Shown here in pieces: positions 1,042 through 56,964 of a DNA stretch of 64,000 nucleotides (positions are counted from its first letter, which is position 1; the number at the start of each line of letters is the position of its first letter). The translations under genes and the position numbers were made by a program. The stretch is from Archaeoglobus neptunius (lineage in GTDB: Archaea > Halobacteriota > Archaeoglobi > Archaeoglobales > Archaeoglobaceae): positions 62,001 through 126,000 of the forward strand of contig NZ_JAEKIW010000005.1 in NCBI RefSeq assembly GCF_016757965.1, in the 5' to 3' direction. The notes under the pieces were generated by a model. It did not search any database. It was given only the letters and a program-made list of their open reading frames with translations, and was not told the DNA's origin.

Positions 1042-1933
1042 TGAGTCGAGCATAAATGCATAGAGGAGAGGAAGTGCGATTGTTGCATCACAGTAGACTG
1101 TAACAGCTTTCGCATCTGGCTTAAGCTTGCACCAGCTTTTGGCTTCCTCAAGTGTTGCACCGCTAAGGCCACCCCACTGTGGAGAATCCGTGGTGATCTG
1201 CACCGCATAATCAAAGCCATCGGCCAGAAGCATGGCCTGAAGGGTGAAATTTTTTGGAACACCCCCTCCAACAATAATCACACCCATCCTCCTTTTCTGG
1301 AAGCAGAGGTCTATCATTCTGTTTACATCTCTAAAAAAATCTATCTGCAGGTCTTTTCTGTATATTGAGACATGCAGGCCGGCTATCGAGTCGTGGAGGG
1401 TGGGACAGAAAATAGGAATTTTCTTCTCCCAGGCTATTCTGAGAAAAGAACTGCTGTCGTCAAGTCTTTTTCCAATTTCCCACAGAAATTCGTAACTCGT
1501 GTAAGTTCCATCAAGCTCGGTGATAACCCCTGAAAGGAATTCCTCAATTTTCTCAAAAGCCTCCTGAGCTATGAACACGTCGTAAATTCTGTTTATGTTT
1601 CTTTCAGCCAGTTCCAGGTCATTGGCGTATGAGGAGCCGATCTCATGGCCAAGCCCCAGAGATTCAGAAATCTCATGCACGATATTTGCCCCGGTTGTTA
1701 CAAGGCAGTTTACGAACCCATTTTTGAGCATTCCTGCTATTATATTTCTCATACCGGCAGGAACCATCGCCCCTGCAACAGTCATAAAAACGAAGGTGTC
1801 GTTTTTTATCATCTCATTGCAAACCTGTGCGGCTTCACCAAGCCTTCTTGCATTGAATCCGGTTCTTTTCATCATTTCTATTAGTTCTGAAACTCTGATT
1901 CCCCCTCTGATTTCCGGACTCTGAACTTTCATG
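1015..1933 (-). CDS. dys: Deoxyhypusine synthase
   Basis: This enzyme transfers the aminobutyl group of spermidine to a lysine of aIF5A, the first step of hypusine formation. The NAD-binding fold is seen in VTTGANIVHE and in the C-terminal part with VGGGVPKNF, which carries the catalytic lysine. ITTDSPQWGGLSGAT also follows the family pattern. A TTG-start extension to 1950 is possible, but the ATG at 1933 sits about 22 nt from a TTTAAA box and gives about 305 residues, close to the family's length. The gene is divergent from mfnB with short intergenic DNA, and its 3' end overlaps the MBL gene. Confidence 0.92.
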
Positions 1934-2003
1934 AATCTGCATTTCGGCAAGGGTTTAAAGTTCTTTCAAAAGGCATATATACCAGCCAATAAACAACCTC
2001 TTG

Positions 2004-2711
2004 ATGAAGGTACTGGTTAGCCCCATGAGTATTGCTGAAGCTGTTGAGGCCATTGAGGGTGGGGCAGACATTATTGACGTGAAAAACCCCGCCGAAGGGT
2101 CTCTTGGAGCGAATTTTCCCTGGGTAATCAAAGAAATCTCTGAGCTCGCCAAAAAACATGGTAAGGAGATCAGCGCAACAACCGGGGACATGCCATACAA
2201 ACCGGGTACAGCGAGCCTTGCTGCATTGGGTGCTGCTGTTGCAGGGGCGGACTACATTAAAGTTGGACTCTATGGAGTTAGAAACGCAGAAGAAGCCTAT
2301 GAAATGATGATTGCGGTGACGAAGGCCGTGAAGGAGTACAATCCCGATAAAAAAGTTGTTGCCGCAGGGTATGGGGATTTCTATCGGATCAACTCCGTGA
2401 ATCCACTGGAACTTCCCGATGTGGTTTCAAAGGCTGGAGCGGATATTGTGATGGTGGATACGGCAATAAAGGATGGCACATCTCTTTTCGACCACATGAA
2501 GGTGGAGGATGTTAGAAAGTTCATTGGGCTGGCAAAGGACAGCGGTTTGATGGTTGCGTTAGCGGGGAACATCGGCTGGCATCACATAGACCTCCTGAAG
2601 GAACTTTCACCGGATATAATAGGCGTGAGGTCAATAGTCTGTGAGAGGGACAGGAACTCGATGATAAAAAGGGAATTCGTTGTAAAGCTCATGGAAGCTG
2701 TGCACGGGTAG
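2004..2711 (+). CDS. mfnB: (5-formylfuran-3-yl)methyl phosphate synthase
   Basis: MfnB condenses two glyceraldehyde-3-phosphates into the furan precursor of methanofuran, the C1 carrier used by the formylmethanofuran dehydrogenase encoded at 56.9-61.0 kb. It is a TIM-barrel protein of 235 residues starting MKVLVSPMS. The Schiff-base lysine is K27 within DIIDVKNPAEGSLGAN, a near-diagnostic family signature, and AGNIGWHHI occurs late in the barrel. The TTG at 2001 directly precedes the ATG chosen here. The last 23 bp overlap the convergent PhoU/TrkA-C gene. Confidence 0.93.
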   Translation: MKVLVSPMSIAEAVEAIEGGADIIDVKNPAEGSLGANFPWVIKEISELAKKHGKEISATTGDMPYKPGTASLAALGAAVAGADYIKVGLYGVRNAEEAYEMMIAVTKAVKEYNPDKKVVAAGYGDFYRINSVNPLELPDVVSKAGADIVMVDTAIKDGTSLFDHMKVEDVRKFIGLAKDSGLMVALAGNIGWHHIDLLKELSPDIIGVRSIVCERDRNSMIKREFVVKLMEAVHG

Positions 2712-3876
2712 AGCAGAGCTTCAGAAGCTCACTCTCCCCCTCTCTTGTTCCCTTTGCAATGAGTAAATCACCGCTGAAAATCTTGGTGTTGGCAGTGGGT
2801 TTTGTAATCCAGTCATTTTTCCTCTTTATGGCAATTACGTGCATGCCTGTGTTGCTCTCAACTCTTGCCTCTCCAAGTGTTTTTCCATGCAGCGGGGAGT
2901 TTTCCGAAACCGTTACCAGCGTGAGCACCTCGTCTGTCTCTCTCATTGCCGCTTTGAAGATCGCTGGAACATCCATTTTGTCCAGTAAAATCTCCGATAT
3001 GTCTCTTGCTGCATCTGCTATCTGTTCCGAGGAGTAGGCTATTTCGATAATGGACATGAGCGGTTTGAGCTGCTCTCTGTCGAAATATTTGCTGCAAAGC
3101 AGGATGTTTCTCTGAATTTCAAACTTCATATTGTCTATTATCTCTTCCAGATAAACTACCTCAAGGGCGATTTCATCATTTCCGTAAATTAAGGAGGAGT
3201 AGGCAAGGTCTATTGCGAGTTCGGATAGGTTTTTCATCTCTATAACCATATCAACAGCCCTGTCCAGCTCCTCAATCTGTATATCCTGCGGTTCCGGTGT
3301 TGCTGGCACAGGTTTACCCGTTACGTATTCGTAGAACTTCGGAACTGCAGAAGGATCACCTCTTGCAAAAATCAGGTCTTCCTTGTAAACGATCGTGTCT
3401 CTATCGGGATTGAAAATCCAGCTAAATCCCCTTTTTATCGCTATGATCCTCATACCTGTTTTGGTATGCAGTTTTAACTCGCCAAGTGTCTTCCCAGTTA
3501 TGTCCGAATCCTCCGGAACCCTAACTCTAACCACCGTCTCCTCGGAGTGGTAGAGTATCAGCTTCACTATTTCCTCGGAAAGCTTGAAGCCCCTTAAAAC
3601 GAGTGATGAGATATCTCCTGCAGCACTGCTTATCTTCTGTCCTGCATTGGCGATTGTGAGTATTGACGAAACCTTTTCTGCATCCTCCACCCTTCTTGCT
3701 GCAAGAACCGAAACGACCCGTATCTGCTTGAGCAGGTCAAGAACTCTCGATTCCAGCTCAAGAACTTCCTCAGCAATATCCTCGTTGTTGTAAAGAATTG
3801 CAGAATATGCGAGATCGACCATAAGTTCTGTTGTGTCTTTAATGTCCACAAGCAGATCTTTAACTGTTCGAGGCAT
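2689..3876 (-). CDS. PhoU/TrkA-C (RCK_C) tandem-repeat regulatory protein
   Basis: This 395-residue soluble protein is an internal duplication. A PhoU-like helical domain (residues ~5-110) and a TrkA-C domain (~115-190) are followed by a second PhoU-like domain (~205-310) and a second TrkA-C domain (~315-390). Matching motifs recur: GKTLGELKLHTKTGMRIIAIKRG in the first half and the similar GKTLGEARVESNTGMHVIAIKRK in the second. Such proteins are usually cytoplasmic ligand-sensing partners of ion transporters or channels. No transporter gene adjoins it, so its partner is unknown. The start is ATG, directly upstream of the JAMM-leuC operon's 3' end. Confidence 0.82.
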   Translation of the reverse strand: MPRTVKDLLVDIKDTTELMVDLAYSAILYNNEDIAEEVLELESRVLDLLKQIRVVSVLAARRVEDAEKVSSILTIANAGQKISSAAGDISSLVLRGFKLSEEIVKLILYHSEETVVRVRVPEDSDITGKTLGELKLHTKTGMRIIAIKRGFSWIFNPDRDTIVYKEDLIFARGDPSAVPKFYEYVTGKPVPATPEPQDIQIEELDRAVDMVIEMKNLSELAIDLAYSSLIYGNDEIALEVVYLEEIIDNMKFEIQRNILLCSKYFDREQLKPLMSIIEIAYSSEQIADAARDISEILLDKMDVPAIFKAAMRETDEVLTLVTVSENSPLHGKTLGEARVESNTGMHVIAIKRKNDWITKPTANTKIFSGDLLIAKGTREGESELLKLCSTRAQLP

Positions 3877-51178: not shown

Positions 51179-52297
51179 ATGGAAATTGTCCACATATCCG
51201 ATGTGCACTTTGGCTCCGAGTTGATAAGGGGCAAAATCGAAGAGGCCGTGAGGCAGATAAATGCAATGGAACCCGATCTGGTTATCCTAACCGGGGATAT
51301 AGGTATGTGGGGAATTCACCACGAATTCAGGGAGGCTTATGAAACTTTATCCAATCTCAAACCGGAGCTTTTTGCAGTTCCCGGAAATCATGACGCCAGA
51401 AATGACGGTATCAAATACTTCAAGCTGTACTTCGGTAGGAACAGAAAGGTGCTGAAATTTGATGATTTTGTTTTTGTTGGGGTTGACAGCACTCTCCCGG
51501 ATTCCGATGATGGCTATATTGGTCCTGAGCAAAGGCAGTGGATCACCGAAAAAGTCAGAGGGAGCTGCATAAACTTCATAACGCTCCATCACCACGTCGT
51601 CCCGGTTCCCCATACAGGGCGAAACATGAATGTTCTTATTGATGCAGCGGAGTTTGTCGAAACCCTGACTCTGAACTGCCATGGTGCGATAGTTCTGGCC
51701 GGACACAGACACGTGCCGTACTCAACAAAGCTTCTCAGGACACACATAATCCATGCCGGTTCGGTAAGCTCGTACAAAGTACTGATGCCAGACAACAACT
51801 ACAACATACTAAAGGTTGGTGGGGGTAGGATAGACCTGAAGCTAAGATTTGTCGATCTGGGGGAGGTGGAAATCGGAAGCTTTCAGCTCAAGCCAGTAAC
51901 TCCTGAATCAATGCTCAGATACCACAGGCTCACCTCAACGAGGAAAGTTCTGCTTTTATCCAGAAGAAACGACTGCAGATCTAAAATTGCCGAGGCTCTG
52001 TTTAACAAACTCTCTCCGGGCAACATGCATGCTGTCAGTGCCGGGCTTGAACCTTCTGCCAGTCTCAATCCTATGGTTTCCAGAATACTGGGTGAACTGG
52101 GTCTCAGTGTTACCAAACCGAAAAAATTTGTGGAGGAAATGGCTAAGGATGCAGACTACGTGGTCTCTTTTGATGAGGATATCACGGCAGATGAGATCTG
52201 GAAGGTTAAAAGACCCAATAACGAAGACGAGTGCAGGAAGCTCGTCAAAATGCTGGAGGAAAACATCAGGGATCTGGTGTGGAGAATTTTACTTTAG
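51179..52297 (+). CDS. Metallophosphoesterase fused to a degenerate LMW tyrosine-phosphatase-like domain
   Basis: This 372-residue protein has an N-terminal calcineurin-like phosphoesterase with all metal motifs: [31 protein letters not shown] and AGHRHVPY (to about residue 190). From about residue 250 a low-molecular-weight protein tyrosine phosphatase/ArsC-like domain follows ([32 protein letters not shown]). The catalytic CX5R loop reads S261-RRNDC-R267, so the nucleophile is serine, and the distal acid is absent. The domain may bind ligand rather than catalyse. The substrate of the front domain is unknown. The ATG is at 51179. Confidence 0.82.
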
Positions 52298-53572: not shown

Positions 53573-55351
53573 ATGAGGCTGATTGTAATGCTGGCCATTG
53601 TATTTCTGGCCACGATCCCTCCAGCAATGGCCCTCAGGGTCGGCGTTTATGATAATCCACCTCTCGTTTTTAAGGAGGATTCAGGATTTAAAGGTTTTTA
53701 TATTGATATTCTTAATCATATCGCGGAGCAGGAAGGATGGGATGTGGAGTATGTGTACGGAAACTTTCCATCTCTTTTAAAGATGCTCAGGAACGGGGAT
53801 ATCGACCTGCTGGTCGCAGTGGCATATACCGAAGGAAGAGCAAAGGAATTCAACTACAGTAACGAGTCTGTTATCACCAACTGGGGGGTTGTTGTTACCA
53901 AATCCAAGCTTGACTCCATCCTTGACCTCAGGGGGCTAAGGGTGGCTGGTGTTGTTGGGGATGTTTATTTTGAAAGTTTAAAGCAACTCGCAAAGAAATT
54001 TAACATTGACTGCCAGTTTGTTGGGATTGAGGGAGATTACAGGGAAGTCTTTGATGCAGTCAATTCCGGTGATGCTGATGCAGGAGTTGTCTCGAGAATT
54101 TATGCCTCGTTTTATGCCAGAGACTCCGGTCTGAAGGAGACAGGTATCATATTCAATCCGGTGGAGCTGCGATTTGTTGGTAACGACAGGGAGGTTCTGC
54201 AGAAGATAGATAGAGATCTTGCCATACTGAAAGAAGACCCAAATTCGATCTATTACCAGTCCCTTGAACGCTGGTTTGGGGCCAAGGTCGAGTTCATTCC
54301 CGAATGGGTGTACAGAGTCATAGCAGTCCTCCTCGTGCTGTTTATCTTTGCCTTTGCAATTGACGCTTACTTGAGCAGGGAGGTGAGAAAGAGGACTGCA
54401 GAAGTTAAAAAAAGCGAAATGTTTCTCAGAGCAGTTTTTAATGCCATTCAGGACGGTATATCTGTGCTGGATGTAAATATGAACGTACTGATGGTCAATC
54501 ACGCAATGGAGAGGTGGTACGGCGATGTTGTAGGAAAAAAGTGTTACCAAGCCTATTATGGCCGAAACGAACCCTGTGAGAACTGTCCAACTTTTGAGGC
54601 AATAAAAAGCAGAGAGTTGAGGAGAGGGGTGGTGCCCGGTTCTCCGGATTCGGATTTGGAGTGTCTGGAGATCTTTAGCTATCCTATGGTGGAGAACAAT
54701 GAGGTTAAAATGATTGTTGAGTTTGTCAGAGATATAACTGAGAAGAAGAAGGTTGAAGAGGATTTGATGAAGTCCCTGGAGAGGTACGAGTACCTGTGGA
54801 ACAGCACAAACGATATACTTTACATCCATAATCTGGAAGGTTGTTTTGTCAGTGTAAACAGGAGGGCTTTGGAACTTTTGGGGTATGGTGTGGACGACAA
54901 TGTTGAGGTGTGGGATGTAATTCCCGAATCTTACGTGGATTTTGTGAAAGAGAAAATTGAGGAGATTTGCAGTACAAAAGGTCCAGCAGGGCCTTTTGAG
55001 TTGCCTGTTAAAGCAAAGGATGGAAGAGAGCTGTGGCTTGAAATTGTAGCGCACCCTGTGATTGAGAATGGAGATGTTGTGGCAGTATACGGAGTGGCGA
55101 GAGATATAACGGAAAGAAAAGCTGTTCTTGAAGAAATAGAGAAGAACATTGCACTCATCTCTTATCTTGTCGACAGGATAAGAAACCCTCTAGCTGCTGC
55201 GAGGGCGTACTGCGAGGTTAAGGAAAAGCTGGGTGAAGACGTGTTTGACAGAATCATTGAGAATATCGACAGAGTCACATATCTCATTGTTGATCTCGAT
55301 AAAGTATGGGAAAATATGGACAGACTCAGGGGAAGGTTAAGGAAAAAATAA
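53573..55351 (+). CDS. Extracytoplasmic solute-binding (SBP3) and PAS sensor lacking a kinase domain
   Basis: This 592-residue protein has a signal peptide (residues 1-20), an SBP3-type periplasmic ligand-binding domain (~21-235; RVGVYDNPPLVFKEDSGFKGFY, GDIDLLVAVAYTEGRA), a membrane helix (~243-265), a PAS domain (~285-395) with a C..CENC motif, a second PAS (~405-520) and a helical tail with RIRNPLAAARAYCEV where a kinase has its H-box histidine; here it is R/N. No HATPase domain follows. It may pass the signal to another protein. The start is ATG; the neighbouring permease gene lies 35 nt downstream. Confidence 0.82.
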   Translation: MRLIVMLAIVFLATIPPAMALRVGVYDNPPLVFKEDSGFKGFYIDILNHIAEQEGWDVEYVYGNFPSLLKMLRNGDIDLLVAVAYTEGRAKEFNYSNESVITNWGVVVTKSKLDSILDLRGLRVAGVVGDVYFESLKQLAKKFNIDCQFVGIEGDYREVFDAVNSGDADAGVVSRIYASFYARDSGLKETGIIFNPVELRFVGNDREVLQKIDRDLAILKEDPNSIYYQSLERWFGAKVEFIPEWVYRVIAVLLVLFIFAFAIDAYLSREVRKRTAEVKKSEMFLRAVFNAIQDGISVLDVNMNVLMVNHAMERWYGDVVGKKCYQAYYGRNEPCENCPTFEAIKSRELRRGVVPGSPDSDLECLEIFSYPMVENNEVKMIVEFVRDITEKKKVEEDLMKSLERYEYLWNSTNDILYIHNLEGCFVSVNRRALELLGYGVDDNVEVWDVIPESYVDFVKEKIEEICSTKGPAGPFELPVKAKDGRELWLEIVAHPVIENGDVVAVYGVARDITERKAVLEEIEKNIALISYLVDRIRNPLAAARAYCEVKEKLGEDVFDRIIENIDRVTYLIVDLDKVWENMDRLRGRLRKK

Positions 55352-55386: not shown

Positions 55387-56964
55387 ATGCGAAAAGACAT
55401 TGGGTTCAAAGAGGCATTCAGCATCGGCGTTGGAGGTATGATTGGAGGAGGGATTTTCGCTGTTCTTGGGCTGAGCGTTCAGCTCTCAAAAAGCTCAGCG
55501 CCAATAGCCTTTCTACTTGCAGGTTTAATTGCTCTGATCACGTCTTACTCGTATGCCAAACTGTCGATAAGATTTCCCAGTGAAGGTGGAACTGTTGAGT
55601 TTTTGGTGAAGGCTTTCGGAAATGGTATATTTTCGGGAGGGCTGAACATCCTGCTCCTGTTGGGGTATATTGTTATGGTTTCCCTCTACGCCTATGCTTT
55701 CGGGAGTTATGGGGCGAACTTGCTGTCTGATTATGTGGTGGTAAGACACATTCTGATAACTGCCGTAATCTCGCTGTTTACATTCATAAACGCATATGGG
55801 GCACTCGTAAGCGGTAAGACCGAAGACCTTCTTGTGGCATTTAAGCTCACCATCCTTATTGTTGTTGCAGGGGTGGGATTAACGCTTGTCAACCCGGAAA
55901 GGCTCCAGCCATCCACGTGGGTCGATCCGGTGAGTATAGTGGCAGGTGGAATGATCATATTTCTTGCATATGAGGGTTTTGAGCTCATCGCAAATACCGG
56001 AAATGATGTCAAGGATCCGAAGATACTACCTAAAGCCTTATATTCGGCCGTGATTGTTGTGATAGCCGTTTACGTTCTTGTAGCGGTTGTGACGGTGGGC
56101 ACCCTTCCCTACGAGACCATTGTGGAGTCAAGGGACTATGCGCTGGCAAAGGCTGCAGAACCATCAATGGGAGAGGCAGGTTTTCTTCTCGTAACTCTTG
56201 CAGCTCTGGCATCAACTGGTTCTGCCATTAATGCAACGCTCTACGGGACAGCACGAATCAGCTATATGGTTGCAAAGTACGGTGAGCTACCCCAGATTGT
56301 GGAAAGGAGGGTTTGGAAACAGGCTCATGAGGGTTTACTGGTCATAAGCATCATTTCGCTGATTCTAGCCAATACCGCAAACCTTGAGTCCATTTCCGTT
56401 GCAGGTAGCGGTAGCTTTCTCATCATCTTCTTTTTTGTAAATGTCGCAGCTTTGAAACTGAGACATAAGCTTAAGATAAATCCAGCAATCCCCGCTGCTG
56501 GGGCAATCCTCACATTTGCGGCTCTGTCAATACTGGTTTACAGGATGGCAGCAGAGGCAACGAACCTTGCAATTCTTGTTGGTTTGGTTCTGGCATCCTT
56601 TTTAATTGAGGCCCTCTACAGAACAACCACTGGTAGAAAAATAAGCGTTTATGTGGACAGCAGACTCAAAAAGAGGGAGGAAACCATCAGAAACTGGGAG
56701 GGATGGATAGCTGGGGTGGTGGATGGAGTATCCGGCCTGATTAAAGATGCTGAGATATATCTCGCAGGCAGCGTTGCAAGGGGGGAGGTTGATAAAGCCC
56801 ACGATGTTGACCTGCTGGTTTTTGTAGATGATGTTAGTGATGACATGCAGCATGAGTGTCAGAAAGCCATGCGCAACCTTCCAGTGGACCTTCATTTTAT
56901 AAGCAGAGAGGATAAAGAATCCGCCCTGAAAAAGGCAAAGCACTACAAGCGACTCGAGATCTAA
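55387..56964 (+). CDS. APC-type amino acid permease fused to a nucleotidyltransferase domain
   Basis: This 525-residue protein has an N-terminal APC-superfamily transporter with about 12 membrane segments (to ~420: GGMIGGGIFAVLGLSVQ, the GxxxGxGIF motif, ITSYSYAKLSIRFPSEGGTVEF). From about 454 comes a minimal nucleotidyltransferase: AGSVARGEVDKAHDVDLLVFV with G461-S462, D473-V-D475, and a third aspartate D501 (VDLHF). It follows the sensor gene at 53573 by 35 nt and may form a transcript with it, so a solute-sensing to transport link is conceivable. Confidence 0.8.
   Translation: MRKDIGFKEAFSIGVGGMIGGGIFAVLGLSVQLSKSSAPIAFLLAGLIALITSYSYAKLSIRFPSEGGTVEFLVKAFGNGIFSGGLNILLLLGYIVMVSLYAYAFGSYGANLLSDYVVVRHILITAVISLFTFINAYGALVSGKTEDLLVAFKLTILIVVAGVGLTLVNPERLQPSTWVDPVSIVAGGMIIFLAYEGFELIANTGNDVKDPKILPKALYSAVIVVIAVYVLVAVVTVGTLPYETIVESRDYALAKAAEPSMGEAGFLLVTLAALASTGSAINATLYGTARISYMVAKYGELPQIVERRVWKQAHEGLLVISIISLILANTANLESISVAGSGSFLIIFFFVNVAALKLRHKLKINPAIPAAGAILTFAALSILVYRMAAEATNLAILVGLVLASFLIEALYRTTTGRKISVYVDSRLKKREETIRNWEGWIAGVVDGVSGLIKDAEIYLAGSVARGEVDKAHDVDLLVFVDDVSDDMQHECQKAMRNLPVDLHFISREDKESALKKAKHYKRLEI

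Follow-up and report, generated by a model that had tools for sequence, protein, structure and literature searches.

Within the 64,000-nucleotide stretch of Archaeoglobus neptunius DNA analysed here (the window), a single gene on the plus strand (55387..56964) encodes what is predicted to be an ApcT-type APC amino acid transporter fused to a C-terminal minimal nucleotidyltransferase (MNT-type NTase) domain, and this fusion is a real, conserved transporter-MNT architecture. Archaeoglobaceae are heat-loving archaea, and MNT-type domains elsewhere inactivate a toxin by attaching AMP. On the transporter, the added domain is most likely an AMPylating or nucleotide-sensing domain that was exapted and would regulate transport from the cytosol. 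If active, it would tie AMPylation of the toxin-antitoxin MNT type to the control of nutrient transport in archaea, and would represent a mobile conflict domain recruited for housekeeping regulation. Both domains are well known and it is their pairing that appears to be new, although the architecture has probably long been on view in domain databases. The preliminary description had not recognised it from described systems, no account of an APC transporter-MNT fusion was found in the open-access literature searched, and the words 'permease' and 'transporter' are both absent from a survey of HEPN proteins (PMC3710099).

Gene structure and predicted fold of the fused protein

The gene starts with ATG and consists of a single open reading frame for 525 amino acids plus a stop; translation of the window confirms 525 uninterrupted codons, in agreement with the preliminary description, which had read the transporter and the NTase domain as one continuous frame. 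When Pfam matches were judged against curated cut-offs, both domains of the fusion gene lay above them, with AA_permease_2 covering residues 5-383 (E 1.5e-35; 123 bits against a cut-off of 27) and NTP_transf_2 (PF01909) covering residues 448-516 (E 1.3e-8; 35.6 bits against a cut-off of 21). The transporter domain (residues ~1-415, 55387..56631, plus strand) was delimited from Pfam, phmmer and Foldseek results. Its closest solved relative is the archaeal H+-coupled transporter ApcT of Methanocaldococcus jannaschii (MJ0609, PDB 3GIA/3GI8/3GI9), which it resembles over the whole transporter part: residues 3-420 match ApcT (3gi9) in phmmer with E 5.6e-65, bearing out the roughly 420 residues of APC transporter originally proposed, and Foldseek with the full-length predicted model returned 3gi9/3gia as top matches, with TM values of 0.88-0.89 by target length. 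K153 (55843-55845, plus strand), invariant in the alignment of fused transporter parts (A1), is a candidate H+-coupling lysine that aligns with ApcT K158, a TM5 residue whose protonation is believed to accompany transport (PMC5983779). By sequence comparison, with homology extending across the 12-helix core, the transporter part is classified as an ApcT-type APC amino acid transporter, with transport activity predicted.

ApcT ends just after its last helix, whereas the window protein adds ~105 presumptively cytosolic residues containing the MNT domain. APC transporters have their C-terminus on the cytosolic side; since ApcT homology reaches approximately residue 420, the added domain should be cytosolic, by analogy with ApcT topology. 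The extension begins with putative cytosolic linker helices (residues ~416-450, 56632..56736, plus strand), recognised from the alignment and from the predicted model, which places helices at 419-435 and 437-451, with pLDDT below 50 at 419-424; linker residues W437 and W440 are invariant among the aligned fused proteins. It continues into the MNT-type NTase domain (residues ~452-522, 56740..56952, plus strand; GS461-462, D473, D475, D501, H503), assigned by Pfam, AF2 and Foldseek. The GS pair, the DxD motif (DVD in the window protein) and the third aspartate lie exactly where they had first been located, at 461-462, 473-475 and 501, and the spacing of 10 residues between GS and DxD gives a GSX10DXD motif. 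The AF2 model of linker plus domain (mean pLDDT 88.8) has its best Foldseek match in 1ylq (AF0614, E 1.7e-5), followed by HI0073 (1no5) and the MntA/MNT antitoxins 6m6w, 8xeo and 7bxo; the profile of linker plus domain (A2) likewise finds 1YLQ as its best sequence match (E 1.4e-6). These matches point to a polymerase-beta-type NTase fold of the MNT kind, with nucleotide transfer itself predicted. AF0614, the minimal nucleotidyltransferase closest in both sequence and structure, is itself a stand-alone protein of 96 residues.

AadA and AAD(9), superfamily members that modify small molecules, are also among the fold matches, and the domain would lie at the exit side of the transporter if ApcT topology holds. 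Both observations would suit group translocation, in which the NTase would nucleotidylate an imported amino acid or small hydroxyl compound at the exit and thereby trap the substrate. However, the domain is minimal and carries no added substrate-binding domain, and we know of no nucleotidylated free amino acids of such a kind, which makes this mechanism very unlikely. The specificity of ApcT, described as broad (PMC5983779), also speaks against it.

Distribution and conservation

The fused frame is shared by 26 of the 57 Archaeoglobales genomes, spanning seven genera, with the same junction and a conserved linker in all 26, several of which are single-contig assemblies. A sequencing frameshift or a misassembly joining two neighbouring genes is thereby refuted, with only a negligible chance left to it. 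The recurrence of the same frame, together with core residues that are invariant against a mean column identity of 57% in A2, places the fusion beyond chance. Unfused orthologues of ~415-436 residues, ending where the linker begins, are found in genera g6, g7, g9 and g13 and in the sister family f2, and those of the sister genera represent natural unfused controls for the family. When the tree was built from the transporter part only, the fused proteins fell into a single clade (support 97/100), and the fusion arose once on this tree. No such fusion was found elsewhere in the phylum among the best matches listed from 393 genomes, in a search that scored at most 11 candidates per genome and could miss rare or diverged fusions; coverage of other phyla was shallow, by a peptide-pattern scan of contigs.

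Residue conservation was counted over 28 fused rows, two of which duplicate another row. G461, S462, A464, D473, D475 and H503 are identical in 28/28, and the GS and DxD residues have thus not been lost in fused relatives. Conservation is looser at R465, which is replaced by K in some g2 copies, by E in the eroding copy of genome G014 and by S in that of G067, and at G466, where a few fused copies have D or N. In close pairs, dN/dS ranges from ~0.03 to 0.30 for the NTase domain versus 0.03-0.15 for the transporter; the NTase domain is under purifying selection but less constrained than the transporter part, from which it also differs in diverging faster. Three fused copies are damaged, one by an in-frame TGA within the transporter part (G017, L018), one by a frame change near the start (G003, L019) and one by erosion of the NTase domain, with R465E and deletions (G014, L014).

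The eroded G014 copy is among the features that would be expected if the domain were a functionless relic, that is, a captured toxin-antitoxin domain kept by chance. The same applies to the window copy, which has a deletion, lacking the seven-residue stretch AGLTPQH found in most relatives directly before D501 in the alignment, and to the absence of the domain from orthologues that presumably transport. Nevertheless, retention of the domain across all these genomes and genera, invariance of its core residues and dN/dS values well below 1 render a relic highly improbable.

Origin and genomic context of the NTase domain

Within the same order and class, the stand-alone proteins that score best with the domain profile are MNTs whose genes mostly adjoin HEPN (PF05168) genes, and profile-profile comparison links the fused domain to HEPN-paired Archaeoglobales MNTs (99.4%, E 2.9e-21). 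Some of these HEPN-paired proteins carry AGLPxVHPFEFH, the counterpart of AGLTPQHxVDIHF in the fusion; they have E or N at the third acidic position while keeping GS, DxD and the histidine two residues further on. In the NTase-domain tree, 27 of 28 fused rows group together and one long branch falls outside, a topology compatible with a single capture, the domain being short and the resolution weak. One locus in G004 (L086, G004:C1:64000-69500) contains three adjacent HEPN-MNT pairs, including the best-scoring stand-alone match to the fused-domain profile.

The fused domain resembles MntA of the HEPN/MNT (HepT/MntA, type VII) toxin-antitoxin system in fold (6m6w, 7bxo, 8xeo) and in its GSX10DXD motif, and the third acid of MntA, D71, is matched by D501 in the window copy. 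In that system, however, a small stand-alone MNT protein pairs with an adjacent cognate HEPN toxin gene, whereas every member of the present group is fused to a membrane transporter and has no such gene as its neighbour. Across the flanks of the window and 21 other loci (15 other genomes and six contigs, with a few genomes represented twice and five loci holding unfused orthologues), no neighbouring gene recurs, and an operon partner was rejected on these grounds. A HEPN toxin partner in cis was rejected as well: a HEPN profile search of the 22 flank sets, the window included, detected none except in G017, where the HEPN gene belongs to a separate HEPN-MNT pair kilobases from the fusion. As neither a HEPN partner nor any conserved neighbour accompanies it, the domain has the transporter as its sole fixed partner. 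These absences also weigh against a transceptor, in which the transporter would report amino acid flow while the NTase modified a separate cytosolic target such as a HEPN protein in trans, a metabolic enzyme, a PII-like regulator or RNA. Relatives of the domain do act on a separate protein (PMC7641770), and Archaeoglobales genomes contain many HEPN/MNT genes, but on balance we consider a transceptor unlikely.

Regulatory readings of the fusion

In the MntA protein of S. oneidensis, the GSX10DXD motif is the site of ATP binding and, together with D71, holds two Mg2+ ions; AMP is moved onto Tyr104 of HepT, and mutation of GS or DxD abolishes AMP transfer (PMC7641770). The MntA metal site D39/D41/D71 corresponds to D473/D475/D501 in the window protein, and because GS and DxD are intact in the fused proteins, catalysis is favoured. 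On the simplest view the added domain would be a cytosolic regulator, and the leading model, tentative though it is, has the fused MNT domain AMPylating either in cis or on a docked partner. An ancestor within Archaeoglobaceae would have carried a proton-coupled ApcT-type transporter that gained a C-terminal MNT domain out of the pool of HEPN/MNT (type VII) toxin-antitoxin systems, the domain then serving as a built-in regulator. We infer ATP use, AMP transfer, the target and the effect on transport as follows: the GSX10DXD motif of the fused domain would bind ATP and two metal ions, AMP would be moved onto a hydroxyl-bearing residue (a tyrosine, if the analogy holds) of the transporter itself, a neighbouring protomer or a docked partner, and AMPylation would alter transport in step with ATP or amino acid supply. 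In a more specific and more doubtful form, the exapted toxin-antitoxin AMPylating domain would allow the transporter to switch its own amino acid uptake through self-nucleotidylation, a mode of transporter control of which, to our knowledge, no example exists.

Several observations count against AMPylation. No acceptor tyrosine both invariant in and unique to the fused transporters was identified, and the missing AGLTPQH stretch of the window copy, the erosion in G014 and the faster divergence of the NTase domain point in the same direction. A further one concerns the complete three-aspartate catalytic set of the preliminary description, which is present in the window copy but does not extend across the family: residue 501 is Asp in the window and most members and His in five genomes (three of g2 and two of g11), a substitution that may weaken the second metal site. 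Given this replacement and the E or N of the HEPN-paired relatives, the third acid is, at the level of sequence, not a strict feature of the family.

The D501H lineages, in which GS and DxD remain, keep alive a pure nucleotide-sensor reading, in which the domain would bind ATP, ADP or another nucleotide and gate the transporter allosterically with no transfer. Precedents for a regulatory domain come from an APC paralogue in the same genome that carries two Usp domains and from the KUP-type transporter KimA, which is inactivated by c-di-AMP (PMC10284832). Both APC-Usp transporters and KimA, the closest analogues of the fusion, share with the window protein an APC fold bearing a C-terminal cytosolic nucleotide-binding domain, but their domain is of the Usp type whereas that of the fusion is a polymerase-beta-type nucleotidyltransferase. 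Pure sensing is possible but doubtful, as the invariance of both DxD aspartates in the fused rows is better explained by catalysis than by binding, and HEPN-paired relatives vary at the third position too.

The APC paralogue with two C-terminal Usp domains is encoded at 1471-3684 of locus L002 (G000:C3), and in genomes G017, G019 and G025 the gene of ApcT type has as its neighbour a paralogue similar in length to this APC-2xUsp protein (740-757 amino acids). Upstream of the fusion in the window, a plus-strand gene (53573-55351) ending 35 bases before it encodes a sensor-like protein with an extracellular solute-binding domain (SBP_bac_3), PAS domains and a HisKA-like stub lacking an ATPase domain, and is not conserved beside the fusion elsewhere. 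Further upstream on the same strand, a 372-amino-acid frame (51179-52297) joins a metallophosphoesterase (residues 1-180) to a domain resembling low-molecular-weight phosphatases (LMWPc, residues 257-338).
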